Source: Streptomyces sp. NA04227 (GTDB taxonomy: Bacteria; Actinomycetota; Actinomycetes; Streptomycetales; Streptomycetaceae). Taken from it: 64,000 nucleotides of DNA. The stretch spans positions 5,693,001 to 5,757,000 of the forward strand of contig NZ_CP054918.1 in the NCBI RefSeq assembly GCF_013364195.1. Reading direction: 5' to 3'. This document shows, piece after piece, positions 6,880 through 42,048 of this stretch (positions are counted from its first letter, which is position 1; each line of letters opens with the position of its first letter). A program made the translations under genes and the position numbers. The notes under the pieces are model-generated. The model saw only the letters and a list, made by a program, of their open reading frames with translations. It was not told the origin of the DNA and made no database searches.

Positions 6880-6985
6880 CCTGTGCTTCGTCCTTCACTG
6901 AGGGCGTTGGGGCGCGCCTGTGTACGGCGGGCCCAGTGATGGGATTGCGCTGAGCGGCGACGACAAAGTGGCGCCGGGGGATCGG

Positions 6986-20039: not shown

Positions 20040-23000
20040 TCAGGGAAGGACGAGGTCGCCGAGCTGCTTCGCCAGCTGCTCCACATGCGGCATGGTGAGC
20101 ATCGTGAGGTGATCGCCCGGGGCCTCGTGTACGTCGATCGGACGGGCGGAGAACCGCCCCCAGCCCCGCGCCGGATCCTCCAGGGTCCAGGCGAGGTCCT
20201 CCGGCGGCACGTTGTCCTGGTGGAGGTCGGCCGCGCGGAAGAAGGTCAGGACACCCTCGTAGGGTTCGGCGGGCGAGTAGAGGCTGCGCTGGTCGGCGAT
20301 GTACGCCCGGATGAAGCCGCGCAGCTGTGTGTCGTCGTCGAATTCCGGCGGCAGCACGCCGTGCCGGGCCAACTCGGCCCGCAGATAGCCGAGTTGCTCG
20401 CTCTCCGGCAGGGCGCGCAGGGCCTCGCCCGTGATGTCCAGGTCTCGTTTGAAGATCCGCTCGAAGACGCGGACCAGGGTCTCCAGCCAGGTCGCCTGGT
20501 CCCAGTCGTCGGTGTGCTGGGTGCGCTCGGGCAGCGGGGTGGAGGTGTCGAGCAGGCAGACCAGGCCGATCTCCTTGCCGAGTGCGCGCAGCCGATTGGC
20601 GAGTTCGATGGCGACGTGTCCGCCGAAGGAGTGCCCGATCAGGTGGTACGGGCCCTCCTGCTGCGCTTGAAGGACCAACGGCAGGTACTGGTCGGCGAGT
20701 TCGCCGACCACGGTCTCGGCGTCGATCTCCTCACCGAACAGCGGTTGCAGGCCGTGGAGGGCCAGGCGCTCGGGCAGTCGGCTGGCCAGTTCGTGGAAGT
20801 ACACCAGGTTGCCGCCCGCGCCGGGCAGCAGGAACACGGGGGTCTCGCCGCCGGGGCGCAGCCGGATCAGCGATTCGCGTGCGTCGCCCGTGCCCTCGTC
20901 CAGGGTGCGCGCCATCTCGGCGACGGTCGGGCCGCGGAACAGGGTGGCCAGCGGCAGCCGGTTGCCGAACTGCCGCTCCACTTCGGCCAGGAGCATCACG
21001 GCGAGTACGGAGTTGCCGCCCAGTTCGAAGAAGCTGTCGTGGACGCCGATCGAGTGCCGCCCGAGGGTCTCCTCCCAGAGCACCGCGAGCCGCAGTTCGG
21101 TCAGGCCGCGCGGGGCGATCCACTCGGTGCCCGTGCGGACGGCGGCCGCGGGCTGTGGCAGCGCGCGCCGGTCGACCTTGCCGTTGGGGGTGTAGGGCAG
21201 CTCGGGCAGTTCCTGGAGGAAGGCCGGGACCATGTACGCCGGGAGGCGTTCGGCCAGGTGGGCGCGGAGGGCGGCGGCCGGGACGGTGGCGCCGGGTTCG
21301 GCGACGACGTATCCGGCGAGGGCGCGGTCCACGCCGGTGCCGTGCACGGTGGCCGCGGCCTGGGCGACGTCCGGGTGGGAGCGCAACGCCGCCTCGATCT
21401 CGCCGAGTTCGATGCGGTGGCCGCGCACCTTGACCTGGTGGTCGGTGCGGCCGATGAACTCCAGGGTGCCGTCGGGCCGGTAGCGGACCAGGTCGCCGGT
21501 GTTGTACATCCGCGCGTCCGGTCCGGTGGCGAACGGGTCGGCGGTGAAGCGTTCGGCGGTGAGTTCGGGGCGGCCGAGGTAGCCGCGGGTGACGCCTCGT
21601 CCGCCGATGTACAGCTCGCCGGGCACACCGACCGGGACCGGGTTGCGGGCCGAATCGAGCACGTACAGCGAGGTGTTGGCGATCGGGCGGCCGATCAGGG
21701 GGCGGCCGTCCGGGTCGACGCGGTGGGTGGTGGACCAGATGGTGGTCTCGGTCGGCCCGTACATGTTCTGGATACGGGCGTCGGTGAGCGAGGTGAGCCG
21801 CTCGGCCAGGGCGGCGGGCAGTTCCTCGCCGCCGAGCAGGAGCAGCCGCAGCTCGGCCAGCGCCTCCGGGCCGCCCTCCTCGGCCAGGATCATCGCCGCC
21901 TGCGAGGGGGTGCACTGGAGCCGGGTGACCTGGTGCCGCTCGATCAACTCCGAGATGGAATGGGCCTGTTCGGCTCCTCGCGCCCGGTGCAGCTCGCCCG
22001 CCTCGGCGAGCAGCGGCAGCGAGGCGAGCACGGTCGCGTCGTCGACGCCGAAGTCGATCAGGCAGCCGACCTCGTCGACGTCCGTGTCCGCGACGGCGTC
22101 CAGCATGCCGACGGCCTGCTCGGGGGTGCCGAACAGGGCGGCCCGGTCGTAGTAGCGCTCGAAGGCGTGGTCGAGCAGGGTGTTCAGGTCGTCCTCGGAC
22201 AGGGCGTTCAGGTCGTCGCCGAGGCCGAGGGTGCGGGCCAGGTTGCCGATCAGGCTGAGCGAGGAGGCGAGGTATTCGCGGAAGGGGCCGCGGACCAGTT
22301 CGCGCACGGTCTCCGGGTCGCGGCCGAGGAAGGTGTGCACCATCAGGGTCACATGGCCGCGGCCCTCGTGCCCGGCGGCGGCCCTGGCCTCGCGGTACAC
22401 CGCGATCTTCTCGGCGAGCTGCTCCAGGTCCTGGCCGAGCAGGTGGGTGAGCAGGTTGCAGCCCGCCGCGCCGGCGGCGCGGAAGGTGTCGGGGCTGCCC
22501 GCCGCGGTGACCCACACCGGCAGTTCGGGCTGCACCGGGCGGGGCAGCGGCCGGACCTCGACCGGCTTGCCCACGCCGTTGACGCGCTCCACCGAACCGC
22601 CGCGCCACAGCGAGCGGATGGTCTCGATGCCGTCGAGCATGACCTGTTTGCGGTCGGTGTAGTTGCCGGGCTGGAGGACGAAGTCGTCGGCCTGCCAGCC
22701 GGAAGCAACGGACAGGCCGACCCGGCCGCCGGAGAGGTTGTCGACGACCGACCACTCCTCCACCACGCGCACCGGGTCGTGCAGCGGCAGGACGACGCTG
22801 CCCGCGCGGACGGCGACGCGCTCGGTGACCGCGGCGACGGCGGCGCCGACCACGGACGGGTTCGGGTAGATCCCGCCGAAGGCGTGGAAGTGCCGCTCGG
22901 GTGTCCACACCGCCTGGAAGCCGTGGGCGTCGGCGAACTTGGCGCCCTCCATGAGGAGTTGGTAGGTGCCGGGCGTCGCGAGTCCCGTGGTGTCGGTGGC

Positions 23001-25319
23001 GCTGGAGAAGTAGAACAGGCTCAGCTCGGTGGTGCGGCCCGCCGTGCGGCCGGGGATGCGCGGGGCGTCCGGCTGGAGCACGACGGTGCTGCCGCCGATG
23101 AGCGTCCACAGCAGTTCGAGGACGGCGATGTCGAAGGAGACGGTGGTGACGCCGAGCCAGGTGCCGGTGCCGTCCTCGCCGAAGACCTCGGTCATCGCCG
23201 CGCAGAAGTTGACCACGTTGCGGTGCTCGACGAGGACACCCTTGGGGCGGCCGGTGGAACCCGAGGTGTAGATGACGTACGCGAGGTCGTCGGGACGTAC
23301 GGCTGCGGGCGGCTGCCCGTCGCCGAACTCGGCCTGGTCGTCCGCCGGTTGGTCCAGGTCCAGGAGCTGCGTGACCGGCGGGCAGGCGGCGCGCGCGGTG
23401 GCGGTCGCGCTGCCGCCGGTAAGCAGCAGCGCGGCCCCGGCGTCGCGCAGGATGAACTCGTTGCGCTCGGCGGGTGCGGACGGGTCGAGCGGGAGGTAGG
23501 CGGCGCCCGTCTTCAGTACGGCGAGCAGGGCGACAAGCAATCGCGGGGTGCGGGGCAGGCAGAGCCCGACCAGGCTGCCGGGGCGTGCGCCGCGCGCCCG
23601 CAGGCCGGACGCCAACTGCTCGGCGGCCGCGTCGAGTTGGGCATACGTCAGGGTCTCGTCGCCCTGGACCACCGCGGCCCGTTCGCCGTCGGCGCGCACC
23701 TGGCGCTCCACCAGCTCGTGCACGGTGGTGTCGGTGACCTCGCGTGCGGTGTCGTTCCAGCCGGTGAGCAGCCGGTCGAGGTCGTCGGCGCCGAGCAGCG
23801 GGAGCTGTGAGACGGGGGTCTCGGGTGCGGCGAGGGCGGCGTCCAGGACGGTGCGCCAGTGGCCGAGCCAGCGGCGGGCGGTGGCCGCGTCGAAGAGGTC
23901 GGTGGCGTATTCGAGGCTGCCGCGCAGTCCGTCCGGGCCCTCCTCGGCGATGAGGGTGGTGTCGAACTTGGCGGTGCCGGTGTGCACTTCCTCAAGTCCG
24001 CTGGAAAGGCCCGGCAGTTCGAGCCGCTCCGCGGAGGCGTTCTGCAGGATGAACATGTGCTGGAACAGCGGGCTGTGGCTGAGCGCGCGCTCCGGCTCCA
24101 GGATGTCCACGAGCTGCTCGAAGGGCAGGTCCTGGTGGTCGAAGGCGGCCACACCGGTGGTACGTACCCGCCGCAGCAGCTCGGCGAAGCTGGGCTCGCC
24201 CTCCGTCTTCACGCGCAGCACAAGGGTGTTGACGAAGAAGCCGATGAGCGGCTCGACCTCGGGCCTGGCCCGGCCCGCGACCGGTGTGCCGACCGCGAAG
24301 TCGTCGGCGCCGCTGAGCCGGGAGAGCACCACGGACCAGGCGGCGAGCAGCACCATGTACGGAGTCGCACCATGCTGGGCCGCCAACTCCCGTACGGCAT
24401 CCATGACTTCGGTGGGCAGGTGGTAGGTCTCGACGCCGCCCGCGTAGGACTGCTGGGCGGGCCGCGGGCGGTCGCCGGGCAGTTCGAGCAGGCCGGGCAG
24501 CCCGTCGAGCTGCTGCCGCCAGAACTCCACGTCCTCGGGCATCTCGCGGGCCGTGAGGTGGGTGCGCTGCCAGGCGGCGTAATCGGCGTACTGGACCGGG
24601 AGTTGGGGCAGTTCGGGGGCGGACGCGCCGGAGTCCCCCGCGTACGCGGCGTAGAGCGCGCACAGTTCGCGGTACAGGACGCCGAGCGACCAGCCGTCGG
24701 CGCAGATGTGGTGCACCGAGAGCAGCAGGTGGCCGTGGTCGGGGCCGTCGTGGACCAGCGAGGCGCGAAGGAGCGGGCCGCTCGCGAGATCGAAGGGGCG
24801 GCGGGCCTCGGCGGAGGCCAGCGCTTCGACGGACTCGCCCTCGGCGAGGGTGAGTTCGGGCAGCGGCACCTCGACGGGGTCGAGGATCTCGGCGACCGGT
24901 TCGCCGTCGCCCATCCGGATCACGGTGCGCAGGGCCTCGTGGCGGCGCACGAGTTCGGTCAGGGCGCGGCGCAGCGCGCCGACGGCCCTCTCGTCCAGGG
25001 TGCCTTCGAGGGTCACCCGGCCGGACAGTACGTACGCGGCGGCGCCGCTCTCGGGCAGCATCTCGGCCATGACCCACATGCGCTGCTGGCCGTAGGACAG
25101 CGGCAGTTCGCGGTCGCGGTCGACGGGCTCGATCGCGGGGCGTTCCTTGGTGCCGCCGCCGAGCAGGGTGATCAGCTCGGCGCGCAGGGCCTTGACGCGG
25201 GTGCGCAGGTCGTCGTCGAGGGCGCCGGGCGGGGCGCTGAAGCGGAGCTTTCCGTCCTCGGTCCAGAGCCTGATGTCGCGGGCCCGCAGCTCGGTGAGGA
25301 GTTCGACCGGCGTGCTCAC
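20040..25319 (-). CDS. NRPS: TubC dock-C-A(LLM)-PCP-TE, glycine-type termination module
   Basis: 1759 residues. Order: TubC-type docking domain (1-55); condensation domain with HHICADG near 204; adenylation domain with A3 YTSGSTGRPKG near 686 and A4 VSFDIAVLELLW near 730; an inserted MupA/Atu3671-type luciferase-like monooxygenase (about 760-1120: LSLFYFSS, VWTPERHFHAFGG, SVVDNLSGGRVGLSVASGW); then adenylation resumes (VTRLQCTPSQ, QNMYGPTETT, A10 NGKVDR); PCP with GGNS near 1433; thioesterase with GHSFGG near 1563 and GDH near 1735. Specificity residues read D-I-L-S-L-G-M-I-W-K, 8 of 10 identical to the glycine code DILQLGLIWK. The layout equals MtaG/MelG of myxothiazol and melithiazol, where alpha-oxidation of glycine leaves a terminal amide. 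The start overlaps the upstream NRPS gene by 4 bp. Confidence 0.92.
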   Translation of the reverse strand: MSTPVELLTELRARDIRLWTEDGKLRFSAPPGALDDDLRTRVKALRAELITLLGGGTKERPAIEPVDRDRELPLSYGQQRMWVMAEMLPESGAAAYVLSGRVTLEGTLDERAVGALRRALTELVRRHEALRTVIRMGDGEPVAEILDPVEVPLPELTLAEGESVEALASAEARRPFDLASGPLLRASLVHDGPDHGHLLLSVHHICADGWSLGVLYRELCALYAAYAGDSGASAPELPQLPVQYADYAAWQRTHLTAREMPEDVEFWRQQLDGLPGLLELPGDRPRPAQQSYAGGVETYHLPTEVMDAVRELAAQHGATPYMVLLAAWSVVLSRLSGADDFAVGTPVAGRARPEVEPLIGFFVNTLVLRVKTEGEPSFAELLRRVRTTGVAAFDHQDLPFEQLVDILEPERALSHSPLFQHMFILQNASAERLELPGLSSGLEEVHTGTAKFDTTLIAEEGPDGLRGSLEYATDLFDAATARRWLGHWRTVLDAALAAPETPVSQLPLLGADDLDRLLTGWNDTAREVTDTTVHELVERQVRADGERAAVVQGDETLTYAQLDAAAEQLASGLRARGARPGSLVGLCLPRTPRLLVALLAVLKTGAAYLPLDPSAPAERNEFILRDAGAALLLTGGSATATARAACPPVTQLLDLDQPADDQAEFGDGQPPAAVRPDDLAYVIYTSGSTGRPKGVLVEHRNVVNFCAAMTEVFGEDGTGTWLGVTTVSFDIAVLELLWTLIGGSTVVLQPDAPRIPGRTAGRTTELSLFYFSSATDTTGLATPGTYQLLMEGAKFADAHGFQAVWTPERHFHAFGGIYPNPSVVGAAVAAVTERVAVRAGSVVLPLHDPVRVVEEWSVVDNLSGGRVGLSVASGWQADDFVLQPGNYTDRKQVMLDGIETIRSLWRGGSVERVNGVGKPVEVRPLPRPVQPELPVWVTAAGSPDTFRAAGAAGCNLLTHLLGQDLEQLAEKIAVYREARAAAGHEGRGHVTLMVHTFLGRDPETVRELVRGPFREYLASSLSLIGNLARTLGLGDDLNALSEDDLNTLLDHAFERYYDRAALFGTPEQAVGMLDAVADTDVDEVGCLIDFGVDDATVLASLPLLAEAGELHRARGAEQAHSISELIERHQVTRLQCTPSQAAMILAEEGGPEALAELRLLLLGGEELPAALAERLTSLTDARIQNMYGPTETTIWSTTHRVDPDGRPLIGRPIANTSLYVLDSARNPVPVGVPGELYIGGRGVTRGYLGRPELTAERFTADPFATGPDARMYNTGDLVRYRPDGTLEFIGRTDHQVKVRGHRIELGEIEAALRSHPDVAQAAATVHGTGVDRALAGYVVAEPGATVPAAALRAHLAERLPAYMVPAFLQELPELPYTPNGKVDRRALPQPAAAVRTGTEWIAPRGLTELRLAVLWEETLGRHSIGVHDSFFELGGNSVLAVMLLAEVERQFGNRLPLATLFRGPTVAEMARTLDEGTGDARESLIRLRPGGETPVFLLPGAGGNLVYFHELASRLPERLALHGLQPLFGEEIDAETVVGELADQYLPLVLQAQQEGPYHLIGHSFGGHVAIELANRLRALGKEIGLVCLLDTSTPLPERTQHTDDWDQATWLETLVRVFERIFKRDLDITGEALRALPESEQLGYLRAELARHGVLPPEFDDDTQLRGFIRAYIADQRSLYSPAEPYEGVLTFFRAADLHQDNVPPEDLAWTLEDPARGWGRFSARPIDVHEAPGDHLTMLTMPHVEQLAKQLGDLVLP

Positions 25320-28300
25320 AGCTCTCCCTCTTCTCGTGCGTCGTCGTCGGTGGCAGCGGCTCGCGGTGCGGAGACCGCCCAGCCGAGCGTGTCCAGGCTG
25401 CGGGCGACGCCCGCCACGGTGGGGTTCTCGAAGATGATCTGGGCGGTGATCTCCACGCCGTGCTCCTCGCTGAGCCGCAGCGCCGCACGGGTGACGCCCA
25501 GCGAATGCCCGCCCAGGTCGAAGAAGTTGGCGTCCGCGGCCACCTGTCCGACGCCGAGGATGTCGGCGAAGACCTGGGCCACGGACTTCTCGGTGGGGGT
25601 GCTCGGTTCGGCGCCGGAGGCCGCGCCGTCCTCGGGTTCGGGGGTGGGCAGTTGGAGGCGGGCGACCTTGCCCGCGAGGGTGGTGGGCATCGCGTCCAGC
25701 CGTACGATCCGGCTCGGCAGCATGTAGTCGGGCAGCGCGCGGGCGCAGTGCTCCCGCAGTGCGGCGGCGTCCGGCAGCCCGGACTCCGCGGCGACCAGCC
25801 AGGCCACGAGCTCGCGCCCGGCGCCGATCCGCCGTGGCTCGACGACGGCCTCCGCCACCCCCGGGTGACGCAGCAACACGGCCTCGATCTCGCCGAGTTC
25901 GACCCGGAAGCCGCGGATCTTGACCTGGTTGTCCATCCGTCCGACGAAGTCGATCTCGCCGTCGGCCCGGTACCTGGCCAGGTCGCCGGTGCGGTACATC
26001 CGCTCCCCCGGCCGGAACGGGTCCGCCACGAAGCGCTCGGCGGTCAGGTCGTCCCGGTGCAGGTATCCGGCGGCCAGACAGTCGCCCGCGACGCAGAGTT
26101 CACCGGCGACGCCCTGCGGTACGGGCTCGTCGTGGCGGTCCAGGAGGTAGATCCGGGTGTTGCCGACCGCCCGGCCGATGGGCGGCAGGCTCTCCCACCC
26201 GTCCGGGGTGCCGGGCAGGGTGTGCGAGGTGATGACGTGCGACTCGGAGGGCCCGTACTGGTTGTGCAGGGCGGCGCCGGTGCGGGTGAAGAAGGTCCGC
26301 AGTTCCTCGGTGACGTGGAGCTGCTCGCCCGCCGTGAACACCTCGCGCAGGCTCTCGGGCCAGCTCTGCTTGGCGTCGGCCACCTCGGCCAGCTGCTGGA
26401 GGGCGACGAACGGCAGGAACAGCCGGGTGACGCCGTGCTCTTGGAGGTAGGGCAGCAGGCGCAGCGCGTCGCGCCGAGTGTCCTGGTCGACGAGGACCAG
26501 GCTCGCGCCCGCCGCCCAGGTCGCGAAGATCTCCTGCACGCTCACGTCGAAGTTGAGGGCGCTGAACTGGAGCACCCGGTCGTCCTCGGTGAACGGGAAG
26601 GTCTCGGCCTGCCAGTCGAGCAGATTGGCGAGCGCGCCGTGCCGCATGGCCACGCCTTTGGGGCGCCCGGTCGAGCCGGAGGTGTAGAGCACGTAGATGA
26701 GGTTGTCTCGGCCGGTGACCACCTCGGGCGGCGTCAACTCCTCGCCCGAGGAGTCGAGTTCGTCTAGGAGCAGCACCCGGACACCCTCGGGGGTGTCCAG
26801 GGCGCTGTCGCTCAGGACCAGTGGGCAGGACGACTCCTGAAGCATCAGCGTCGTCCGCTCGGCCGGGTGGGTGGGGTCCAGCGGCAGCAGCGCCGCGCCC
26901 GCCTTGAGGATCGCGAGCATGGCGACGAGCTGACGGACCGAGCGCGCGGTGTGCAGTCCGACCGGTACGTCCGGTCCGGCGCCCTTCGAACGCAGCGTGT
27001 GCGCGAGGCGGTTGGCCCGCTCCTCCAGCTCGGCGTACGTCAGCTCCCGCGTACCGAAGCGGACGGCGACGGCCTCGGGGCGGCGGGCGGCCTGCTCGGT
27101 GACGTAGGTGTGCACCGGGCGGTCGAGGTCGACGGGGCGGTCGGTGGCGTTGCGGCCCGCGAGGAGCTCGGTGCGCTGTTCGGCGGTGATCAGCGGGAGG
27201 CGGGAGACCGGGGTGCCGGGTTCGCGCAGGGCGGCCGCGGTCAACTCCCGGAAGGAGTCGGCCAGTCGGCGGACGGTGTCCTCGTCGAAGAGGTCGCTCG
27301 CGTACTCCAGGGTGCAGACCAGGCTGTCGCCCCGGTCCTCGGCGAACAGGGTCAGGTCGAACTTGGCGGTGCCGTTGTGCACGTCCTCGGCCTCGGCCCG
27401 CAGCTCGCCCGGGCTCAGGTCGCTGTGCGGCGACTCGTAGTAGGTGAGCATGTTCTGGAAGACGGGCGCGTGGCTGGCCGAGCGGCGCGGGGCCAGTTCG
27501 GCGACGACTTGCTGGAAGGGCACCGCGCGGTACTCGAAGCCCTCCAGGAAGGTGCGCTGGGTGCGGCCGAGCAGCTCGTGGAAGCTGGGCTCGCCCGAGA
27601 GGTCGACGCGCAGCGGCAGGGTGCCGACGAAGAAGCCGACCACGGAGGCCGCCTCCGGCCGTTCCCGGTTGCTGACGGGGGTGCCGACCACCACCTCCTC
27701 GGCGTGCGCGTGCCGGGCGAGCGCGGCGGCCCAGCAGGAAAGCACCACGGTGTACGCGGTGACGTGCGCGCGCCCGGCGGCCTCCTGGATCAGGGCTGTG
27801 GTCGCGGTGTCGAACGTGAAGCGCACGGCGCCGCCCCGGAAGGACTGACGGGCCGGACGCGTCCGGTCGGCGGGCATCTCCAGAAGGACCGGAGCACCCT
27901 CCAACTGTTCCTTCCAGTACGAGAGTTGGCGTTCCTCGGTGGCCGGGGACAGGCTCCGGCGCTGCCAGTCGGCGACGTCCGCGTGCTGGACGGACAGCGG
28001 CGGCAGCGTGGTCGGCTCGGCCCCGCCCTCGTAGAGCCGGAACAGCTCACGCAGAAGGACGGCGAGGGAGGGCGCGTCGGCGGCGATGTGGTGCACGGAG
28101 AGCAACAGGTAGTGGCTCTGCTCGCCGGTCCTGATCAGGGTGGCGCGCAGCAGGCGCCCCTCGGTGAGGTCGAAGGCCTCCCGCGAGGACGCGTGCACCA
28201 GCCGTTCCAGTGCCTCTTCCCGCTCGCCCGCGGGAAGTTGGGACAGGTCGCTGCGGCGCACCTCCAGCTCGGCCGGAGGCAGCACGAACGCCCTGACCTC

Positions 28301-28720
28301 GCCCCCTGGACCGGGCCGGAACGCGGTCCGCAGCGCCTCGTGCCGGCCCGCGAGCAGGCCGAGACAGTCGATGAGCAGGTCGGTGCGCAGCTCTCCGGTG
28401 AGGCGGACGCCGCCGCTGAGGACGTACGTCGGCTCGCCGCCTTCGAGCCGGTCGAGCAGCCACAGCGCCTGCTGCCCGTCGGACAGCGGGAAGCCCTCGG
28501 TGTCGCGGCCCTCCCTCGGCAGCGGCTTGACCGGCTCGTTCAGGGCGGCCTCGGCCCGCAGATGGGCCAGGAGCCGGGCCTTGCCCGCGCGCAGCCTCTC
28601 GCGCAGGTCCGGGGTGAGCGCGCCCTTGGCGGCGGAGACCTTCAACTCCTCGCCCTCGGCGCGGAGCCGGACCCGGGCCTCGGCCAAGTCGTCCAGCAGA
28701 GTGGTCAGTTGCTCGGTCAC
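25316..28720 (-). CDS. NRPS elongation module: TubC dock-C-A-PCP
   Basis: 1134 residues. A TubC-type docking domain (1-58) precedes a condensation domain whose active site reads HHIAADA near 212, with Ala in place of the usual Gly of HHxxxDG. Adenylation: A3 YTSGSTGRPKG near 683, A4 LNFDVSVQEIF near 725, A5 HNQYGPSES near 820, A8 RTGDLARY, A10 AGKVAR. The PCP serine is in FDLGGHSLG near 1072. Specificity residues read D-V-Q-V-F-A-Q-V-I-K, which share six of ten positions with the proline code DVQLIAHVVK; the substrate is therefore uncertain. ATGA overlaps join it to both neighbours. It accepts the acyl chain from the KR-ACP protein upstream and passes it to the glycine-type module. Confidence 0.92.
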   Translation of the reverse strand: MTEQLTTLLDDLAEARVRLRAEGEELKVSAAKGALTPDLRERLRAGKARLLAHLRAEAALNEPVKPLPREGRDTEGFPLSDGQQALWLLDRLEGGEPTYVLSGGVRLTGELRTDLLIDCLGLLAGRHEALRTAFRPGPGGEVRAFVLPPAELEVRRSDLSQLPAGEREEALERLVHASSREAFDLTEGRLLRATLIRTGEQSHYLLLSVHHIAADAPSLAVLLRELFRLYEGGAEPTTLPPLSVQHADVADWQRRSLSPATEERQLSYWKEQLEGAPVLLEMPADRTRPARQSFRGGAVRFTFDTATTALIQEAAGRAHVTAYTVVLSCWAAALARHAHAEEVVVGTPVSNRERPEAASVVGFFVGTLPLRVDLSGEPSFHELLGRTQRTFLEGFEYRAVPFQQVVAELAPRRSASHAPVFQNMLTYYESPHSDLSPGELRAEAEDVHNGTAKFDLTLFAEDRGDSLVCTLEYASDLFDEDTVRRLADSFRELTAAALREPGTPVSRLPLITAEQRTELLAGRNATDRPVDLDRPVHTYVTEQAARRPEAVAVRFGTRELTYAELEERANRLAHTLRSKGAGPDVPVGLHTARSVRQLVAMLAILKAGAALLPLDPTHPAERTTLMLQESSCPLVLSDSALDTPEGVRVLLLDELDSSGEELTPPEVVTGRDNLIYVLYTSGSTGRPKGVAMRHGALANLLDWQAETFPFTEDDRVLQFSALNFDVSVQEIFATWAAGASLVLVDQDTRRDALRLLPYLQEHGVTRLFLPFVALQQLAEVADAKQSWPESLREVFTAGEQLHVTEELRTFFTRTGAALHNQYGPSESHVITSHTLPGTPDGWESLPPIGRAVGNTRIYLLDRHDEPVPQGVAGELCVAGDCLAAGYLHRDDLTAERFVADPFRPGERMYRTGDLARYRADGEIDFVGRMDNQVKIRGFRVELGEIEAVLLRHPGVAEAVVEPRRIGAGRELVAWLVAAESGLPDAAALREHCARALPDYMLPSRIVRLDAMPTTLAGKVARLQLPTPEPEDGAASGAEPSTPTEKSVAQVFADILGVGQVAADANFFDLGGHSLGVTRAALRLSEEHGVEITAQIIFENPTVAGVARSLDTLGWAVSAPRAAATDDDAREEGEL

Positions 28721-31700
28721 AGCGTGAACTCCTCGACGTGTTCGTCCTCTTCGAGTGCGAGTACCGCGACGAGAAGCTCCAGGACGTGTTCCGTGAGTTC
28801 CTCGATGCTCGGCCCCTCCAGGAGGCGGACCATGGGCACCACCACGCCGAGTTCGTTCTTGATGCGGTTGCGCAGGTCCAGCGACATCAGTGAGTCCAGG
28901 CCCATCTCGACGATGGGCTGCTGCCGGTCGACCTGCGCGGGCTCGGCGCCGAGAACGCCCGCCAGCCGCTCGGTGAGGTACTCCGCGACGATCGCGGTGC
29001 GCTCGTCGGCGTCGGCCTCGGCGCAGCGCTGGAGCAGTTCCGCCGCGCCCTCGTCCCCGGCCTCGGCGAGGAAGGCGCCGAACTGGCCGGTGTGCCGGGC
29101 GGTCGGGAAGGCGGCGAACATCTCGGCCCAGTTCAGCCGGGCGACGGTGAGCTGGCTCGGGTCCTGGTCCAGGAACCGGTCGAAGATCTCGGTGGCCTCG
29201 GCGGGCGCCATACTGCCGACGCCGACCCGGGCGAGCTGGTCGAGCCCGTCCTCGCGGACGGCCATGCCGACCCGGTTCCAGGGGCCGTAGCCGAGCGCTC
29301 CCGCGGCGCTGCCCTCGGCGCGCCGGTGGTGGGCGAGCGAGTCCAGGAAGGCGTTGGCCGCCGCGTAGTTGGCGGCACCGACGCCCACCGGACCGAAGAC
29401 CGCGGGCAGTGCGGACACAAGGAGGAACAGGCGGGCGTCAGCGAAGACGCGGTGCAGGTTCCAGCCACCGGCGATCTTGGGTGCGGTCACCTCGCGCAGC
29501 CGCTCGGTGTCCAGGTCGCCGAGCATGGCGCCCTTGACCACACCGGCCAGGTGGACCAGGCCGACCACGGGCGGCAGGCCCTGTTCGGCGAGCGAGTCGC
29601 GCAGGGCGACCAGCTCCTCGTGGCGGGAGACGTCGGCGGTGGCGACGTGCACCCGGGCGCCGAGCGCGGTGAGTTCGTCGATGGCCGCGCGCTGCTCGTC
29701 CGTGGTGAGGCCACGGCGTGCGGTCAACACCAGGCTGCGCGCGCCGAGTTCGGTCATCCGGCGGGCGAGCACCAGTCCGAGGTCGCCGAGACCGCCGGTC
29801 AGCAGATAGGTGCCGGCCGGGTCGAGACGCGGCAACGGGCTCGCGGGCCGGGCGAGTTCGGGTGCGCGCACCAGACGCGGGGCGAGCAGTGCGGAACCGC
29901 GTACGGCGAGCTGGTCCTCGGCGCGCTCGCCGGTGAGGACCTGGACGAGCCGCGCCGGATCGGCCTCGGCAGACGGGTCCAGGTCGAGCAACCCGCCCCA
30001 CAGATCGGGCTGTTCGGCGGCGGCGACCCGGCCGAGGCCCCACAGCGGCGACTGGAGCACACCGCTGACGCCGACCGGGCTGCCCCCGGCGGGCTGGGCG
30101 CCCCGGGTGACCAGCCAGACGCGGCCGCAGCGGGTGGGGTCGTCGAGTTCGAGTGCGCTGCGCAGCAGGGCGAGCGCCGACTCGACGCCCGGGCCCTGGG
30201 CGGCCTCGACCTGTGCGGTGTCCAGGTCGGCGGCGCCCGGGGCGTCCAGCGGCCAGAGCAGGGCGATACCGGTCAGCGGCTCGCTGCGGACGGCCGTGAA
30301 CAGCGCGCGGCGCACCTGGCCGGGCTCGTCGCCCTCGGCCCGCCGGACGATCTCGACCCGGTGGCCGCCCGCGGTCAGCTCGGCGGCGAGGGCCTCCCCG
30401 GTGCCGCCCTCGTCCGCGAGGACCAGCCAGCGGCCGGGTTCGGCGTCCTCGGCGGGGGCGGGCGCCGCCACCTCGGTCCAGTCGGTGCGGTAGCACAGAG
30501 CGGCACCCGGGTCGACGGAATCCTCCGCCGACTCCACGGTCCGCATCCGCAGGCCCGCCGCCTCGGCGACCGTGCCGTGCTCGTCGAACAGCCTTACATC
30601 GGCGCGCAGTTCGCCCTGTGGCTCGCGCTCGGGAGTCCGTACGACATGGGAGTGGACCAGGCCCTCAGGGCGCCGGTGCAGCCGGAGCGTGCCGACCCCG
30701 GCGGGCAGCGCGAGGACGCCGCCGCCGGTCAGCGCGCCCGGGGCGAGCGCGCCGAGCAGCAGGAAGGCGTTGTCCAGGAGCGCCGGGTGGTACTCGTAGG
30801 CGTCCGCCTCACCGCCGCTGGGCATCCGCAGGGTGCCGAGCACCTCCGACTCCCCCACCCACAGGGACTCCAGGCAGCGCATCCGCGGGCCGTAACCGGC
30901 ACCGGCGGCGCCGAGCACCTCGAAGAACTCGTCGGCCGGGATCTCGGTGGTGCACCGCTGCCGGATCTCGTCGGGGTCGTCGGTCCAGGCGGGGGCGGGA
31001 GCGGCGGGTTCGGCGGCGGGCTCGTGCGTACCGGCGGCCGTACCGTCCGGGGACTGCGCGTACAGCGCCACGGCCTCACGGCGGTCCCGTATCCCGCGCA
31101 GCACCTCCGGGTCGTCGGCGGTCAGTTCGCGCAGCTTGTCCAGGGACGGCAGTCCGGCCATGACCTGGTCGACGGGCGGGCCGAAGTCGAGCAGACAGGC
31201 CAGTTCGTCCACGCCGATCGCGGCCAGGCGGCGGGCCAGCGGCAGGCTGGACTCCGGCGATCCGATGAGGGAGCGCTCGGCGGCGAACCGCTCGTAGAGG
31301 AAGTGGACGAACTGGTTCATCTCCTCTTCGGGCAGCGCCTGGATGTCGACGTCGCCCCGTCCCCGGGAGCTGGCAAGTCCCTTGAGCAGCCCGAGGTTTC
31401 CCTTGAGGTACTCGCAGTACGGGTCCCGTGCCGCCTCGATGGCCTGCCCGGCGTCAGCACCGAGGAAGGTGTGCAGCATGACGGTGACCTGACCGGCCTC
31501 CGGGTCGAACCCGGCCTGGGCGCGGGCCTTGCGGTAGGTGGTGATGCGTTCGGCGAGGCCCTCGACGCCCTGGTCGAGCAGGTGGGTGAGCAGGTTGACG
31601 CCCATCCGTCCGGCCCGGGCGAAGCTCTCCGGCGAACTGGCCGCGGTCATCCACATCGGCAGCTCGGGCTGCACCGGGCGCGGATAGCTACGGACCCGTA

Positions 31701-32163
31701 TCTGCTTGCCGGTGCCGCTGGTGGCGGGGATCTGCTCGCCACGCCACAGGGCGCGCAACTGAGGTACGGCGCGGGCCAGTTCGTCGTTGCGGCCGCTGTA
31801 GCGGTCGGGGAAGAAGGCGAAGTCGTCCGGGTTCCAGCCGGAGGCGACCGAGATGCCGACCCGGCCGCCGGACAGGTTGTCGACGACCGACCACTCCTCG
31901 GCCACCCGCAGCGGGTTGTGCAGGGGCAGCACCACACTGCCCGCCCGCAGCCCGATCCGGGAGGTCTCCCGGGCCAGGGCGGCCTGGAGCACGGCCGGGT
32001 TCGGGTACAGCGACCCGAGCGGGGTGAAGTGCCGCTCGGGCACCCACACACTGTGGAAACCGTGCGCGTCGGCGTACTTGGCGCTGTCGATCAGAAGCCC
32101 GTAACGGTCCTCCCCCTCAAGGGAGTTCTCGTAACTGGCGAAGAACATCAGGCTGAGTTTCAC
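28717..32163 (-). CDS. PKS half-module: LLM-DH(C-terminal hotdog)-KR-ACP
   Basis: 1148 residues. Residues 1-345 are a MupA/Atu3671-type luciferase-like FMN monooxygenase (LSLMFFASYENS, VWVPERHF, SVVDNLSGGRVGISVASGWN). Residues about 390-520 are the second hotdog of a PKS dehydratase: EIPADEFFEVL, YGPRM, the catalytic Asp in HPALLDNAF near 462, and LPAGVGTLRLHRRP. A ketoreductase follows (TGGLGDLGLVLARR near 786; NYAAANAFLD); no LDD motif is seen. The ACP serine is in EMGLDSLMSLD near 1090. The first hotdog, with the catalytic His, is at the end of the upstream protein, so one dehydratase is divided between two polypeptides with the LLM at the break. It overlaps both neighbours by 4 bp. Confidence 0.9.
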   Translation of the reverse strand: MKLSLMFFASYENSLEGEDRYGLLIDSAKYADAHGFHSVWVPERHFTPLGSLYPNPAVLQAALARETSRIGLRAGSVVLPLHNPLRVAEEWSVVDNLSGGRVGISVASGWNPDDFAFFPDRYSGRNDELARAVPQLRALWRGEQIPATSGTGKQIRVRSYPRPVQPELPMWMTAASSPESFARAGRMGVNLLTHLLDQGVEGLAERITTYRKARAQAGFDPEAGQVTVMLHTFLGADAGQAIEAARDPYCEYLKGNLGLLKGLASSRGRGDVDIQALPEEEMNQFVHFLYERFAAERSLIGSPESSLPLARRLAAIGVDELACLLDFGPPVDQVMAGLPSLDKLRELTADDPEVLRGIRDRREAVALYAQSPDGTAAGTHEPAAEPAAPAPAWTDDPDEIRQRCTTEIPADEFFEVLGAAGAGYGPRMRCLESLWVGESEVLGTLRMPSGGEADAYEYHPALLDNAFLLLGALAPGALTGGGVLALPAGVGTLRLHRRPEGLVHSHVVRTPEREPQGELRADVRLFDEHGTVAEAAGLRMRTVESAEDSVDPGAALCYRTDWTEVAAPAPAEDAEPGRWLVLADEGGTGEALAAELTAGGHRVEIVRRAEGDEPGQVRRALFTAVRSEPLTGIALLWPLDAPGAADLDTAQVEAAQGPGVESALALLRSALELDDPTRCGRVWLVTRGAQPAGGSPVGVSGVLQSPLWGLGRVAAAEQPDLWGGLLDLDPSAEADPARLVQVLTGERAEDQLAVRGSALLAPRLVRAPELARPASPLPRLDPAGTYLLTGGLGDLGLVLARRMTELGARSLVLTARRGLTTDEQRAAIDELTALGARVHVATADVSRHEELVALRDSLAEQGLPPVVGLVHLAGVVKGAMLGDLDTERLREVTAPKIAGGWNLHRVFADARLFLLVSALPAVFGPVGVGAANYAAANAFLDSLAHHRRAEGSAAGALGYGPWNRVGMAVREDGLDQLARVGVGSMAPAEATEIFDRFLDQDPSQLTVARLNWAEMFAAFPTARHTGQFGAFLAEAGDEGAAELLQRCAEADADERTAIVAEYLTERLAGVLGAEPAQVDRQQPIVEMGLDSLMSLDLRNRIKNELGVVVPMVRLLEGPSIEELTEHVLELLVAVLALEEDEHVEEFTL

Positions 32164-35100
32164 GGCGTCTTCTCCCCCTTCTCCCCGTGCTGCCCGTTGC
32201 GGTTTCCGGCGCCTTCGGCCCCGCCGGAGCGCACCAGTCGTGCGGCGGCGTGCTGCAGCCAGCCGGAGCCCTCGCTCTCGGCCCGGCTGTGGACGCTGAA
32301 CGCGAGGGTTCCGCCGGGCTTTCCGTACAGCCCGACCTGGACGATGCGGGCACCGTCCGCGGGCACGCCGAGCACGCTCAGGTACTCGATGTCCTCAAGT
32401 ACGTACGGCTGTTCGGGCGCGAGCTGCCTGACCGCGGCGAGCGCCATCTCGATGTAGCTGGTGCCGGGCGCGACGACCTGGCCCTGGATGCGGTGGTCGT
32501 CGAGCACCTCGGACTGCTGCCGGGCCAGCACCCGCTGCCAGACGTGCCGTTCGGCGTCCTCGGCGAGCTGCGGCAACTTCCGCCCGAGCAACGGGTGTCC
32601 GCTGTCTCGGCCACCGAAGTCGGCTGCGGCGCGCGGCAGTTCGTCGGGCAGCCACAGACGGCGGCGGTTGAAGGGATACGTGGGCAGCAAGTGCCCCTTG
32701 GCGCGCGGCAGTTCACCGCCGCCGCTCACCGCGCTCCAGTCGACCGGCAGGCCCAGTGCCCACGCGGCTCCCAGCGCCTGGGCGAAGACCAGGCCGCAGG
32801 GCCTGCCGCCGCGCAGCGAGGAGACCCAGTCGCCCGGCTCCTCGGTGCCCGCGGCGATCTTCCTGGCCAGCGGGGCGAGCATCGCGTCCGGGCCGAGTTC
32901 CAGGCCGGTACGGCAGCCCTCGTCCAGCAGCGTCCGAACGCCGTCGGCGTAGCGCACGGTGCCGCGCAGTTGCTCCACCCAGTACTCGGCGGTGGCCATC
33001 CGGGGACCGGCCAGGCGGCCGGTGAGCGAGGACACCAGCGGGACCTGCGGCGCCTTCATGGTGACCTTCTCGGCGGCCCTGCGGAACTCGTCGAGCACCG
33101 GGTCCATGAGCGGCGAGTGGAAGGCGTGCGAGGTGCGCATCTCCTTGGACAGATGGCCCTTGGCGGCGAGTTCCTCGGCGGCCTCGGTGACGGCCTCGGC
33201 CGTGCCGGACAGGACGATCTCCTGTGCGCCGTTGACCGCGGCCACCGCGAGTTCGCCCGGCCGCCGCTCGACCAGCGGCCGCACCTCCGCCTCGGGGGCG
33301 CGCACGGCGCGCATCAGCCCGCCCGGCGGCAGCTCCTGCATCAGCTTCGCGCGGGTGCCGAGCAGGGTGAGCGCGTCGGCCAGGTCGAAGACCCCGGCCA
33401 GACAGGCGGCCACGTACTCGCCGACGCTGTGCCCGAACAGATACGTCGGCTCCACGCCGAGCGAGCGCCACAGCGCGGCCAGCGCGTACTCCACGGCGAA
33501 GATCGCGGGCTGCGCGAACTCGGTCCGCGCCAGCCTCTCCTCGTCCGCCACGACCTCCAACAGGTCGAAGCCCAGGCGCTGTTGGGCGACCTGCGCGCAT
33601 GCGTCGAAGGCCTCGCGGTAGGCGGGCCAGGACCGGTAGAGATCCATGCCCATGCCCGCGTGGTGCGAGCCCTGCCCGGTGAACAGGAAGGCCGTGGCCG
33701 GTGCGCGGCGCGGTGCGCGCGCGGCGGTACCGCCGTGGGTGCGCCCGGCCGAGGCCTTGCCCTCCGCCGCGAACTTCTCCAGGACACCGCGGGCGTCCTC
33801 GGCGGTGGCGGCGGCCACCGCGAGCCGGTGCGGGAAGACGGTGCGGGTGCTGCCGGCCGCGTAGCCGACCTCGGGCAGTGGCAGCTCGCCGCGCGCGAGG
33901 AGTTCGGCGTACCGCGCGGCCAACTCCCGTAGCGATGCGGGGCTGTTGGCGGAGAGCGGCAGGACCACGGGAACGTCCGCGTCCGCCGTGCCGTCCGCCC
34001 GCGCGGGCTCGGGCGCCGCCTCCAGTACGACATGCGCGTTCGTCCCGCCGAAGCCGAAGGCGCTGACCCCGGCGATCCGCCGCTCGCGCGGCCAGGGCCG
34101 TGCCTCGGTGGGGATCTCAAGCGGGGAGTCCAGGTCGGCGATGTGCGGGTTGAGCGCGGTCAGGTGCAGGTTCGGCGGGATGGTGCCGTGCCCGAGCGCG
34201 AGGACGGTCTTGATGAACCCGGCGATGCCCGCGGCCGATTCGAGGTGCCCGATGTTGGTCTTGACCGAGCCGAGGCAGACCGGGCCCGCCTCGCCGGTGC
34301 GGCCCTCGGTGAGTACGGAGGTCAGCGACTCGTACTCGATGGGGTCGCCGAGGCTGGTGCCGGTGCCGTGCGCCTCCACGTAGCCGATCTCGTCCTGGGC
34401 GACCCCCGCCGCCGACCAGGCCGACCTGATGACCTCCTGCTGCGCCTGACCGTGCGGCGCCGTGAGCCCGTTGGACCGGCCGTCCTGATTGACCGCCGAG
34501 CCACGGATGACCGCGAGGATCCGGTCGCCGTCGGCCTGCGCGAGCGACAGCGGCTTGAGGACGACGGCGCCGCAGCCCTCACTGCGTACGTAGCCGTCGG
34601 CGCGCGCGTCGAAGGCCTTGCAGCGGCCGTCCGCGGCCATCATCTGCGCCTGCGAGAACACCGAGGTCAGCTCGGATCCGAGGATCAGGTTGACGCCCGC
34701 GGCCAGCGCCACCTTCGACTCACCGCTGCGCAGCGCCGCGCACGCCTGGTGCAGCGCGACCAGCGAGGACGAACAGGCGGTGTCCACGGCGAGGCTCGGG
34801 CCGCGCAGGTCGAGCAGGTACGAGAGGCGGTTGGCGGCGATGCTCAGGGCGTTGCCGGTGCCGTAGTACGCGTCCAGCGCCTGGGGGGCACCGGCGGTCA
34901 GCCTGCTGTAGTCGTTGTTGCTGATACCGACGAAGACGCCGGTGTCGCTGCCCGCGAGCGAGGACGGCAGGATCGACGCGTGCTCCAGCGCCTCCCAGGC
35001 GACTTCGAGCAGCAGCCGCTGCTGCGGGTCGATGGCGCGGGCCTCCGCCGGGGAGATCCCGAAGAACTCCGGGTCGAATCCGGCCACTTCGCGGAGATAG

Positions 35101-37361
35101 CCGCCCCAGCGGGTGCTGACGCTGCCGGGGCGCCCCAGCGCGGGGTCGTAGCGCAGCTCGGTGCCCCAGCGCTCGACCGGGATCTCCGCGATCGCGTCCG
35201 TGCCGCCGAGCAGCAACTCCCAGAACTGCTCCGGGTTGTCGGCACCCGGGAAGCGGCAGGCGAGGCCGACGACGGCAACCGGCTCGTCGGCGGTGCGTGC
35301 GTTGTCGCGGGTGGCCGCCGGTTCCTGGATCCCGGCGAGGTGGCGGGCGACGCCTTCGGCGGTGGGGTGCTGGTAGAGCAGCGGGGCGGGCAGACGGCGG
35401 CCGAGGGCACGCTGGAGGACCCCGGAGACGGACACGGCACCGGCCGAATCCAAGCCGTAGGCCGCGAAGTTGGTGCCCGGGTCGATGCTGTCGGCGGGCA
35501 GCGAAAGGTGGTCGGCCACGGCCGCCAGGACCTGCCGCAGGAGTTCCTCGTACTGGCCCGGCGGCCCGGCGGCGGTGTCCCGGTCGGCGGCCACCGCAGC
35601 CGTACGGTCCCAGGTCGCGACCGCGTTCAACGTGCCGTCCAGGTAACCCTTCTTGGCGGCCCGGCGGGCGATCTTGCCGCTGGAGGTCTTGGGCACGGCG
35701 CGGGTGCGCAGCAGCACCAGGGCGTGCAACGGTACGTCGAACTCCTTGGTGAGCGTGCTCGCCACGGCCAGGCCGAGTCGCTGGACCTCGGCGGGGTCCA
35801 TCGACTCCGCCTCCGCGCGCACCTCCTGCGCGACGACCACACGCTCCTCGCCGTCCAGCTCCACGGAGAACGCGGCGGTGCAGCCCGGCCGGAAGAGACG
35901 GTCGACGCCCTCGACGGTCTTCTCGATGTCCTGCGGGTACAGGTTGCGCCCGCGGACGATGATCAGGTCCTTGATACGGCCGGTGATGCCGAGCCCGCCG
36001 TCGGCGGTGAGGAAGCCCAGGTCACCGGTGCGCACCCAGGGCAGTTCCGTACCGTCCTCGGCGTCCTGCCCGGCGAGCCGGTTGTGGAAGGTGGCGACGG
36101 TCTCCTCGTCGCGCTGCCAGTAGCCCCGGCCCGCGCTGTGCCCGCTCATCCAGACCTCGCCGATGGTGCCCTCGGACACCGGGAGCGCCGTCTGCGGGTC
36201 GACGATCAGCAGCTTCTGGTCGTAGTGGACGCGCCCGCAGTCGACCACGGAACGCGCGCCCGGGGTGCCGGGCTCGACCGGCACGACCCGGTCCCGCTCC
36301 AGCTCCGCGCCGTCGAGGTGATGCACCCGCGCGCCCTCGCCGGGGGTGCCGCCGGTGACGTAGACGGAGTTCTCGGCCAGCCCGTACGCGGGGTACCAGG
36401 AGCCCTCGGCGAAGCCGTGCTCGGCGTAGACGGAGGCGAACCGGTCCAGGGTCTCCGCGCGGATCGGCTCGGCGGCGTTGAGCGCGACCTTCCAACTGCT
36501 GAGGTCCAGGCCCGCGCGGTCCTCGGGCCGGGTGCGGCGGACGCAGAGTTCGTACGCGAAGTTCGGCGCGGTGCTGAACGTGCCGCCGTAGTCGCTGATC
36601 GCCTTCAGCCAGCGGATGGGCTCCTGGAGGAAGGCCTCCGGGGGCATGTAGACGAGTTCGGTGCCCCAGTACAGCGCCTGCAACAGATTGCCGATCAGGC
36701 CCATGTCATGGAACAGCGGCAGCCAGGAGACGTACACCGGACGCTCGGTGTGCCCCATGCCGTGCGCCATCATCGTGCAGTTGTGCAGCAGGTTGGCGTG
36801 GGAGAGCATCACGCCCTTGGGGATCCCGGTGGACCCGGAGGTGTACTGCAGGAACGCCAGCTCGCTCCCGGCCGCGTCGACCGGCTGCCAGTCCTCGGCC
36901 TCGGCCGCCTCGACGAGGTCGGTGGCCACCCAGTGCGCCTCGGTGTAGTGCTTGCCGGAGAGCATGTCGCACAGCCAGCCGGGGGCGGCGACGACGGTGG
37001 CGCCGGAGTCCTTGGCGACCGCGTTGAGCCGGGCGGCGTGCTTGTCCGAACGCGGTGGATAAGCCGGGACGGCGATCATTCCCGCGTAAAGACACCCGTA
37101 GAAGGCCGCGGCGAATTCCGGGCCCGACGGGTAGAGCATGAGCACGCGATCGCCGGGAGAACCGACGGTGCGCAGCCGGGCGGCAATGGCCCGCGCCCGC
37201 TGATCGAGGTCGGCGTAGGACAGCCTTTCCGTGACGTTCTCGCCGTCGGAAAGAAAGGTGAATGCCGTCTGCCGACCCTGCTCTTCACTCCGCTTCCGAA
37301 GCAGATCGACCAGGGTTTCCACGCGCGGATCCGGCAGTACTGCAGGAGAAAGCCTGCTCAC
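32160..37361 (-). CDS. FAAL-ACP-KS-AT-DH(N-terminal hotdog) loading and extension protein
   Basis: 1733 residues from GTG 37361, chosen for the AGAGGGAG ribosome-binding site and because FAAL homology begins there; open frame further upstream only crosses the repeat and the GYD gene in a wrong frame. Order: fatty acyl-AMP ligase (1-570; YTSGSTGIPKGVMLSH, RTGDLGFL, GRIKDLIIVRGRN); ACP with GLDSAG near 638; KS with DTACSSS near 861, EAHGTGTSLGDP and KTNIGHLESAAG; AT with GHSVGEY near 1311 and HAFH near 1411, the malonyl-CoA signature; first hotdog of a dehydratase with HRIQGQVVAPG near 1626. The FAAL activates a free fatty acid as acyl-AMP for the ACP; KS and AT then add one malonate unit. The protein stops inside the dehydratase, and the rest is in the overlapping downstream gene. 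Confidence 0.93.
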   Translation of the reverse strand: MSRLSPAVLPDPRVETLVDLLRKRSEEQGRQTAFTFLSDGENVTERLSYADLDQRARAIAARLRTVGSPGDRVLMLYPSGPEFAAAFYGCLYAGMIAVPAYPPRSDKHAARLNAVAKDSGATVVAAPGWLCDMLSGKHYTEAHWVATDLVEAAEAEDWQPVDAAGSELAFLQYTSGSTGIPKGVMLSHANLLHNCTMMAHGMGHTERPVYVSWLPLFHDMGLIGNLLQALYWGTELVYMPPEAFLQEPIRWLKAISDYGGTFSTAPNFAYELCVRRTRPEDRAGLDLSSWKVALNAAEPIRAETLDRFASVYAEHGFAEGSWYPAYGLAENSVYVTGGTPGEGARVHHLDGAELERDRVVPVEPGTPGARSVVDCGRVHYDQKLLIVDPQTALPVSEGTIGEVWMSGHSAGRGYWQRDEETVATFHNRLAGQDAEDGTELPWVRTGDLGFLTADGGLGITGRIKDLIIVRGRNLYPQDIEKTVEGVDRLFRPGCTAAFSVELDGEERVVVAQEVRAEAESMDPAEVQRLGLAVASTLTKEFDVPLHALVLLRTRAVPKTSSGKIARRAAKKGYLDGTLNAVATWDRTAAVAADRDTAAGPPGQYEELLRQVLAAVADHLSLPADSIDPGTNFAAYGLDSAGAVSVSGVLQRALGRRLPAPLLYQHPTAEGVARHLAGIQEPAATRDNARTADEPVAVVGLACRFPGADNPEQFWELLLGGTDAIAEIPVERWGTELRYDPALGRPGSVSTRWGGYLREVAGFDPEFFGISPAEARAIDPQQRLLLEVAWEALEHASILPSSLAGSDTGVFVGISNNDYSRLTAGAPQALDAYYGTGNALSIAANRLSYLLDLRGPSLAVDTACSSSLVALHQACAALRSGESKVALAAGVNLILGSELTSVFSQAQMMAADGRCKAFDARADGYVRSEGCGAVVLKPLSLAQADGDRILAVIRGSAVNQDGRSNGLTAPHGQAQQEVIRSAWSAAGVAQDEIGYVEAHGTGTSLGDPIEYESLTSVLTEGRTGEAGPVCLGSVKTNIGHLESAAGIAGFIKTVLALGHGTIPPNLHLTALNPHIADLDSPLEIPTEARPWPRERRIAGVSAFGFGGTNAHVVLEAAPEPARADGTADADVPVVLPLSANSPASLRELAARYAELLARGELPLPEVGYAAGSTRTVFPHRLAVAAATAEDARGVLEKFAAEGKASAGRTHGGTAARAPRRAPATAFLFTGQGSHHAGMGMDLYRSWPAYREAFDACAQVAQQRLGFDLLEVVADEERLARTEFAQPAIFAVEYALAALWRSLGVEPTYLFGHSVGEYVAACLAGVFDLADALTLLGTRAKLMQELPPGGLMRAVRAPEAEVRPLVERRPGELAVAAVNGAQEIVLSGTAEAVTEAAEELAAKGHLSKEMRTSHAFHSPLMDPVLDEFRRAAEKVTMKAPQVPLVSSLTGRLAGPRMATAEYWVEQLRGTVRYADGVRTLLDEGCRTGLELGPDAMLAPLARKIAAGTEEPGDWVSSLRGGRPCGLVFAQALGAAWALGLPVDWSAVSGGGELPRAKGHLLPTYPFNRRRLWLPDELPRAAADFGGRDSGHPLLGRKLPQLAEDAERHVWQRVLARQQSEVLDDHRIQGQVVAPGTSYIEMALAAVRQLAPEQPYVLEDIEYLSVLGVPADGARIVQVGLYGKPGGTLAFSVHSRAESEGSGWLQHAAARLVRSGGAEGAGNRNGQHGEKGEKTP

Positions 37362-37399: not shown

Positions 37400-37490
37400 G
37401 TTCTGAGTTCTGAGTTGTGCGTTCTGAGTTGTGCGTTCTGAGTTGTGCGTTCTGAGTTGTGCGTTCTGAGTTGCGAGTTGCGAGTTTTGC
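37400..37490. repeat. 14-bp tandem repeat in the leader of the FAAL-PKS gene
   Basis: Three contiguous perfect copies of GTTCTGAGTTGTGC (37421-37462), a degenerate fourth (37463-37476) and further partial units (GTTCTGAG, GCGAGTT) at both edges. It fills much of the 221-bp gap between the GYD gene and the FAAL-PKS start, ending about 40 bases before the start codon, so it would be transcribed as part of the leader. Confidence 0.85.
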
Positions 37491-37582
37491 GTTCTGGATC
37501 TGCGTTCTTGTTATGGAGGTGCATACGAAACTGCCCGGAGCCGCGGGCCAAGTGGCCCGGCGGCTCCGGGCAGCGGGGGGCC

Positions 37583-41908: not shown

Positions 41909-41953
41909 CCACCGGGCGGGGCCGGGCCGTCACCGCACGCGCCCCGCACCACC

Positions 41954-42018
41954 CCTCTCCCCTCTCCCCTTCCCCTCCGCTTCTCCCTCCCTCCTCCCTC
42001 CTCCCCCTCCCTCCCGCA
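41954..42018 (+). other. Polypyrimidine tract before the LLM gene
   Basis: About 65 bases almost purely C and T (repeats of CCTCC, CTCCC, CTTCC) in the 140-bp gap between the permease stop and the LLM start. It may be purely mutational, or could influence transcript stability. The RNA would lack G, so it would be unstructured. Confidence 0.6.
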
Positions 42019-42048
42019 GCGTCCCGCCGCCCCGATCCAAGGACCCCG

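Follow-up and report, generated by a model that had tools for sequence, protein, structure and literature searches.

MupA hydroxylates the alpha carbon of a beta-ketoacyl chain on an acyl carrier protein (ACP) before the ketoreductase (KR) acts, and not the beta-hydroxy form; it is dimeric and requires an external flavin reductase (PMC10953402). In puwainaphycin biosynthesis, a luciferase-like monooxygenase (LLM) domain (6ket) lies inside the PuwE protein of a polyketide synthase/nonribosomal peptide synthetase (PKS/NRPS) line, after a fatty acyl-AMP ligase (FAAL) start, and alpha-hydroxylation has been proposed for it (PMC4219810). We analysed a 64,000-nucleotide stretch of Streptomyces sp. 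NA04227 (contig NZ_CP054918.1, positions 5,693,001 to 5,757,000; hereafter the window), in which an LLM lies between the two halves of a PKS dehydratase divided over two genes, whose products we call P1 and P2. The LLM of P2 belongs to the same family as MupA and OocM, and the same reaction, on a beta-ketoacyl-ACP before the KR, would be expected of it. However, MupA is a free trans-acting protein working with a KS0 bimodule, whereas the window LLM is placed in cis, and the protein after P2 begins with TubC docking and condensation (C) domains, with no downstream KS0. The PuwE domain is the closest solved structure to the P2 LLM, but it follows an aminotransferase, which Pfam did not find in P1 or P2; cyanobacterial LLMs of the aminotransferase type are placed apart from the P2 LLM in our tree, PuwE itself being outside the tree. 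In the OcfJ/OcfI pair of occidiofungin/burkholdine biosynthesis in Burkholderia, apparently as in the window, the first dehydratase hotdog ends one protein and LLM, second hotdog, KR and ACP make up the next. That pair differs in that no acyltransferase (AT) was recognised in the OcfJ-like protein and in that two more PKS modules and an aminotransferase follow.

The features of the two genes are as follows (KS, ketosynthase).

32160..37361, minus strand: P1, 1733 aa, FAAL-ACP-KS-AT-first hotdog (Pfam; start by eye)
36117..37298, minus strand: FAAL / AMP-binding domain of P1 (PF00501, 227.2 bits)
35337..35534, minus strand: ACP of P1 (PF00550, 50.6 bits)
34161..35285, minus strand: KS of P1 (PF00109, PF02801)
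32874..33689, minus strand: AT of P1 (PF00698, 203.8 bits)
32283..32597, minus strand: first hotdog (DHn) of P1 (PF21089, 85.8 bits), matching the first halves of curacin dehydratases
32160..32163, minus strand: overlap of the P1 stop and the P2 start, GTGA (sequence)
28717..32163, minus strand: P2, 1148 aa, GTG start, LLM-second hotdog-KR-ACP
31129..32157, minus strand: LLM domain of P2 (TIGR04020)
30520..30984, minus strand: second hotdog (DHc) of P2 (PF14765, 89.5 bits, residues 394-548), matching the second halves of curacin dehydratases
29275..29814, minus strand: KR of P2 (PF08659, 166.9 bits, residues 784-963)
28783..28983, minus strand: ACP of P2 (PF00550, 56.8 bits, residues 1061-1127)

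These assignments bear out the first-pass annotation, which had read a hotdog with the catalytic His at the end of the upstream protein and a complete MupA/Atu3671-type LLM, a second hotdog with the catalytic Asp, KR and ACP in the downstream one; the overlap that it gave as ATGA reads GTGA and is indeed 4 bp long. TIGR04020 covers residues 3-345 of P2 with 465.5 bits against a cut-off of 244.45 and is matched along its whole length (1-341 of 341), and the domain is of the luciferase TIM-barrel type. The mechanically called open reading frame (ORF) of P1 has 1983 aa, inflated by a 14-bp tandem repeat (37407-37508, 7.4 copies, 86% matches) lying immediately 5' of the likely start. We rejected it as an over-extension in favour of the probable start GTG 37361, which by eye is preceded by a GAGGGA-like site.

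The catalytic residues are divided between the two proteins. His1623 of P1 (codon 32495-32493) stands in HRIQGQVVAPG, of which HRIQGQVVAP conforms to HxxxGxxxxP, and Asp464 of P2 (codon 30774-30772) stands in HPALLDNAF; the GYGP motif is also intact, and the Gln/His usual at Asp +4 is replaced by Leu468. The profile of hotdog 1 aligns to CurF 2-136, CurK 6-140 and CurJ 7-147, and that of the later part of P2 to CurK 134-291 and CurJ 142-296, so that the two fragments are complementary and each matches the corresponding half of an intact double-hotdog dehydratase. In comparison with CurF, CurJ and CurK, the window dehydratase is in two chains, has an LLM at the junction and has an Asp without its Gln/His partner. 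Fold search supports hotdog 1 in P1, again by the first halves of curacin dehydratases; the fold-search matches listed for P2 (Foldseek, VIA) were taken up by LLM folds, and hotdog 2 is assigned by the profile matches. The Pfam scan of P2 found no PF21089, which argues against a complete dehydratase within the downstream protein. The proposal that the two hotdogs pair in trans as one dehydratase fold is thus supported indirectly, by the complementary halves and by the adjacent partners and natural single-chain fusions described below.

The other dehydratases of the genome served as a control. PF21089 and PF14765 have 21 matches each, and, judged by coordinates, 20 of the 21 hotdog pairs have 69-195 bp between their members and stand in open frames of the same length; the pair in the window is the only one set apart, with 1,298 bp between its members, which occupy two frames. 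Twenty of the 21 PKS dehydratases are intact and only the window one is split.

The split is not peculiar to this genome. While a scan of genome contigs with the N-terminal 560 aa of P2 alone returned no relative, a scan of named genomes based on alignment A1, which was built from members with an N-terminal LLM and leans towards split forms, gave a best 80 loci that together with L039 of a congener make up a set of 81, mapped with hidden Markov models (HMMs) built here. In 22 of the 81, an LLM is preceded by hotdog 1 or followed by hotdog 2, or both, and in 21 of those 22 the protein directly upstream has hotdog 1 close to its end. These 21 split loci come from Actinomycetota (6), Chloroflexota (4), Cyanobacteriota (3), Pseudomonadota (2), Bacteroidota (2), Myxococcota, Acidobacteriota, Planctomycetota (1 each) and one further bacterium, eight phyla in all; one of them (L061) ends before the place of hotdog 2. 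Measured to the nearest start codon, the gaps run from -35 to +192 bp, and eight are 4-bp overlaps. The rest of the mapped loci have LLMs without an adjoining hotdog, mostly inside adenylation (A) domains or alone, and in L056 there is no plus-strand gene directly upstream. A frameshift, an artefact of sequencing or assembly, or a recent chance break of the gene was also considered: a single indel could give a 4-bp overlap with a change of frame, and fused versions exist, but the recurrence in eight phyla with variable gaps, including five Streptomyces and one congener, leaves this explanation with hardly any probability, and the sequencing artefact was rejected. The split arrangement is real, recurrent and widespread.

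Single-chain forms are also found. Among the best 120 homologs of P2, the window protein included, the LLM begins no more than 33 residues from the start in 117 and three are fused, in a list filtered by length to the disadvantage of fused forms. When a fused relative served as query, a search admitting about 1100-3500 aa and again taking the best 120 recovered many of them. Both lists together, with the window excluded (n=195), contain 150 split forms, 38 fused forms and seven proteins without a recognised hotdog beside the LLM, length-filtered numbers which give no unbiased ratio of split to fused. By Pfam, P0125 and P0144 read FAAL-ACP-KS-AT-DHn-LLM-DHc-KR-ACP in one chain and P0137 reads KS-AT-DHn-LLM-DHc-KR-ACP. 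Modules of the form KS-AT-LLM-KR-ACP, without a recognised dehydratase, are P0160 and P0189 (Pfam) and likewise L059 and L060 (HMM and motif only).

A tree of 103 LLMs, thinned from the mapped set, was made by a quick method with midpoint rooting and with Shimodaira-Hasegawa-like approximate likelihood ratio test (SH-aLRT) support only; the label for modules without a dehydratase was assigned manually, on the basis of Pfam lists and a motif search. A branch with 100% SH-aLRT has on one side 83 LLMs (40 split, 26 fused, 10 without dehydratase and 7 others, namely five free-standing Bacteroidota LLMs, the truncated P0165 and L066_6944), and across it lie 20, comprising LLMs inserted in A domains, aminotransferase-type LLMs and a few unclassified. 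The modules without dehydratase are nested among those that carry one, and one LLM so labelled (L079_12991) groups with the aminotransferase type. Split and fused forms are intermixed, with seven label changes for split, at least four of them forced by starred branches, so that the two forms have interchanged more than once; no direction is inferred. The free-standing Bacteroidota LLMs (L062, L063, L064, L065 and L070, about 360 aa) nest within the dehydratase-associated group, and the Cylindrospermum cluster L079 contains both an LLM of the split-dehydratase kind (5727) and the one that groups with aminotransferase types (12991).

The first-pass annotation knew of no characterised module with this arrangement, but a locus of Burkholderia ubonensis (L045) contains a pair with this architecture and agrees with the published ocf cluster in gene order, in domains and in the size of ocfI, 3324 bp. 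L045 begins with an ORF without a Pfam match at E 1e-5, an epimerase, a class-III aminotransferase and a TauD-type protein, continues with FAAL-ACP-KS-DHn (4449 bp, 4556-9004) and LLM-DHc-KR-ACP (3324 bp, counted from the ATG at 9001; the first start given by the ORF tool is 8950), and ends with a KS-KR-ACP-KS-AT-ACP-aminotransferase protein. The two middle genes are joined by a 4-bp overlap, and the dehydratase His and Asp are kept. Pfam recognised no AT in the OcfJ-like protein, unlike in P1, and therefore this module may be loaded in trans. The published ocf genes, in reverse order relative to L045, are ocfH for a hybrid NRPS-PKS, ocfI (3324 bp) for a 'flavin-dependent monooxygenase', ocfJ (4428 bp) for an 'NRP synthetase', ocfK for a halogenase, ocfL for a transaminase, ocfM for an epimerase and ocfN for a thioesterase (PMC9494966; also PMC10100970). 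By gene order, size and domains, the L045 pair apparently corresponds to OcfJ/OcfI.

The lipid of occidiofungin is 3-amino-5,6,7-trihydroxystearic acid, an unbroken C18 chain with a 5,6,7-triol, and a report describes the diol of this antifungal candidate as important for its activity (PMC9792986). If the line is colinear and starts from C12, module 1 would supply C5-C6, with the 7-OH as the reduced beta-keto group and the 6-OH as the alpha-hydroxyl, while modules 2 and 3 would provide the 5-OH and the 3-amino group, respectively. Every group of the lipid would then be accounted for without dehydration, and by analogy a relative whose product is known allows the chemistry of the window module to be predicted.

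We therefore consider it probable that P1 and P2 form one PKS extension module that places a vicinal diol on a fatty acyl chain, with the hotdogs serving as a docking joint and no net dehydration; what the module catalyses in Streptomyces sp. NA04227, the part of the hotdogs in docking and the lack of a dehydration step are the inferred parts. The FAAL of P1 would activate and load a fatty acid, KS-AT would extend it by one malonyl unit, and the beta-ketoacyl chain would be carried on the ACP of P2. There the LLM would hydroxylate the alpha carbon with O2 and reduced flavin mononucleotide (FMNH2) from a separate reductase. Taking the order of events from MupA, the KR would next reduce the beta-ketone and the product would be a 2,3-dihydroxyacyl-ACP, to be handed on to the NRPS modules. 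The hotdogs of P1 and P2 would pair as a dehydratase fold that docks KS-AT to LLM-KR-ACP, oxidation taking the place of dehydration without net loss of water. The suggestion that oxidation may replace dehydration agrees with the occidiofungin lipid and with fused relatives in which the His, or the dehydratase as a whole, is gone; for a coupling of the two, also suggested, no positive support was found, although the conserved His and Asp are compatible with it.

A role of the Baeyer-Villiger type, with oxygen insertion or chain cleavage instead of hydroxylation, has been reported for CalD and MndB (PMC8739492), but the hydroxyl and the unbroken chain of occidiofungin make it very improbable here. 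We give as little credence to a sequence that begins with dehydration, the alkene then being oxidised by the LLM, through an epoxide, to the diol. This would employ both active sites and could likewise end in a diol; however, MupA requires the beta-ketone, the window ORFs scanned included no recognisable epoxide hydrolase, and some related modules have no dehydratase.

Several observations weigh against the docking proposal, and the strong conservation of His and Asp in split forms is its main unexplained point, since a pure scaffold predicts otherwise. The His is kept in 19 of the 21 split loci and the Asp in 165 of 171 split proteins (window and near-copies included). Among representatives below 60% identity, the Asp column ties for 5th-8th of 167 in conservation (92 split proteins) and the His column for 5th-8th of 116 (14 split proteins), and the window itself keeps HxxxGxxxxP and GYGP. 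In addition, the chemical argument depends mostly on a single known product, the tie between L045 and ocf is one of gene order, size and domains, and on a contig of a Chloroflexi metagenome-assembled genome (L058, 9001-10401) an LLM-hotdog 2 protein has no hotdog 1 found upstream, through either a contig error or a partner elsewhere.

The conserved residues and intact motifs would also suit an active reconstituted dehydratase, removing water after alpha-hydroxylation and ketoreduction to give an enol and then an alpha-keto acyl chain. We think this unlikely: both hydroxyls are retained in the occidiofungin lipid although L045 has the same His and Asp, and the Asp partner, Leu in the window, is kept as Gln/His in only 93 of the 171 split proteins (Asp and partner together in 88). 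Fused proteins vary further: of 38, the His column holds H in 22, Y in 15 and S in one, and DxxxQ/H is intact in 22; 17 keep both motifs and 11 have lost both. P0106 and P0124-P0136 are a fused group in which Tyr replaces the His. Perhaps, and we offer this only tentatively, the hotdog joint has a non-dehydrating active site in which the LLM product, an alpha-hydroxy-beta-ketoacyl chain, is the substrate of His and Asp; through enolisation these residues might, for instance, set or swap the configuration of the alpha-hydroxyl carbon. The LLM and the half-dehydratases would then be a composite alpha-hydroxylase/epimerase domain across two proteins. A PDB title among the hotdog-1 fold matches hints at an isomerase role for GphF DH1.

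If the vicinal-diol proposal is right, hotdog 1 followed by LLM-hotdog 2-KR-ACP could be read as a rule for a 2,3-dihydroxyacyl unit, covering a layout found in eight phyla or more, to which the source labels seen give only generic names. OcfJ/OcfI would be re-read as a split-dehydratase/LLM module, and the question is raised of why a module that keeps its diol conserves a dehydratase active site across two proteins. A search of open-access literature, with closed literature and the original ocf and hassallidin cluster papers outside its scope, found, among the titles and abstract openings listed, no description of an LLM inside a dehydratase/hotdog junction; an earlier description in those original papers is possible. 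Hassallidin has a 2,3-dihydroxy fatty acid (PMC10300848), a lead for which we claim no link.

The rest of the line and its neighbours lie downstream of P2.

25316..28720, minus strand: P3, TubC docking-C-A-peptidyl carrier protein (PCP), next step of the line (Pfam)
20040..25319, minus strand: P4, TubC docking-C-A(LLM inside)-PCP-thioesterase (TE), last step of the line (Pfam, TIGR04020)
22002-23024, minus strand: the genome's second TIGR04020 LLM, lying within the A domain of P4, whose specificity code is Gly-like
19197-20003, minus strand: methyltransferase, downstream of P4
16799-19075, minus strand: MMPL-family transporter, downstream of P4

The methyltransferase and the transporter are likely part of the cluster. 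The P4 LLM is of the same family as that of P2, but it has another host domain and a separate place in the tree; the two lie on opposite sides of the 100% SH-aLRT branch, which rules out a recent duplication within the cluster. Among the Streptomyces-type loci (L039, L048, L049, L051, L052 and L055), five of six have a downstream A-domain LLM, and L049 ends before its expected place. Aligned to a reference ruler, the A-domain codes are DVQFFAQITK, which resembles Pro codes, and DILCLGMIWK, close to Gly. An LLM in a Gly A domain before a TE resembles the amide-forming ends of the myxothiazol and melithiazol lines, in which MtaG and MelG are proteins of this LLM-in-A-domain kind, and by that analogy the P4 LLM may form a terminal amide. 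From the codes and these ends, our guess for the window product is a 2,3-dihydroxyacyl-aminoacyl amide.

Upstream of P1 there is a small GYD-domain protein (37583-37942, minus strand; 32.3 bits, cut-off 31.4). Another luciferase-family protein (41203-43506, plus strand) neighbours an ABC-transporter-type gene and does not appear to belong to the cluster.

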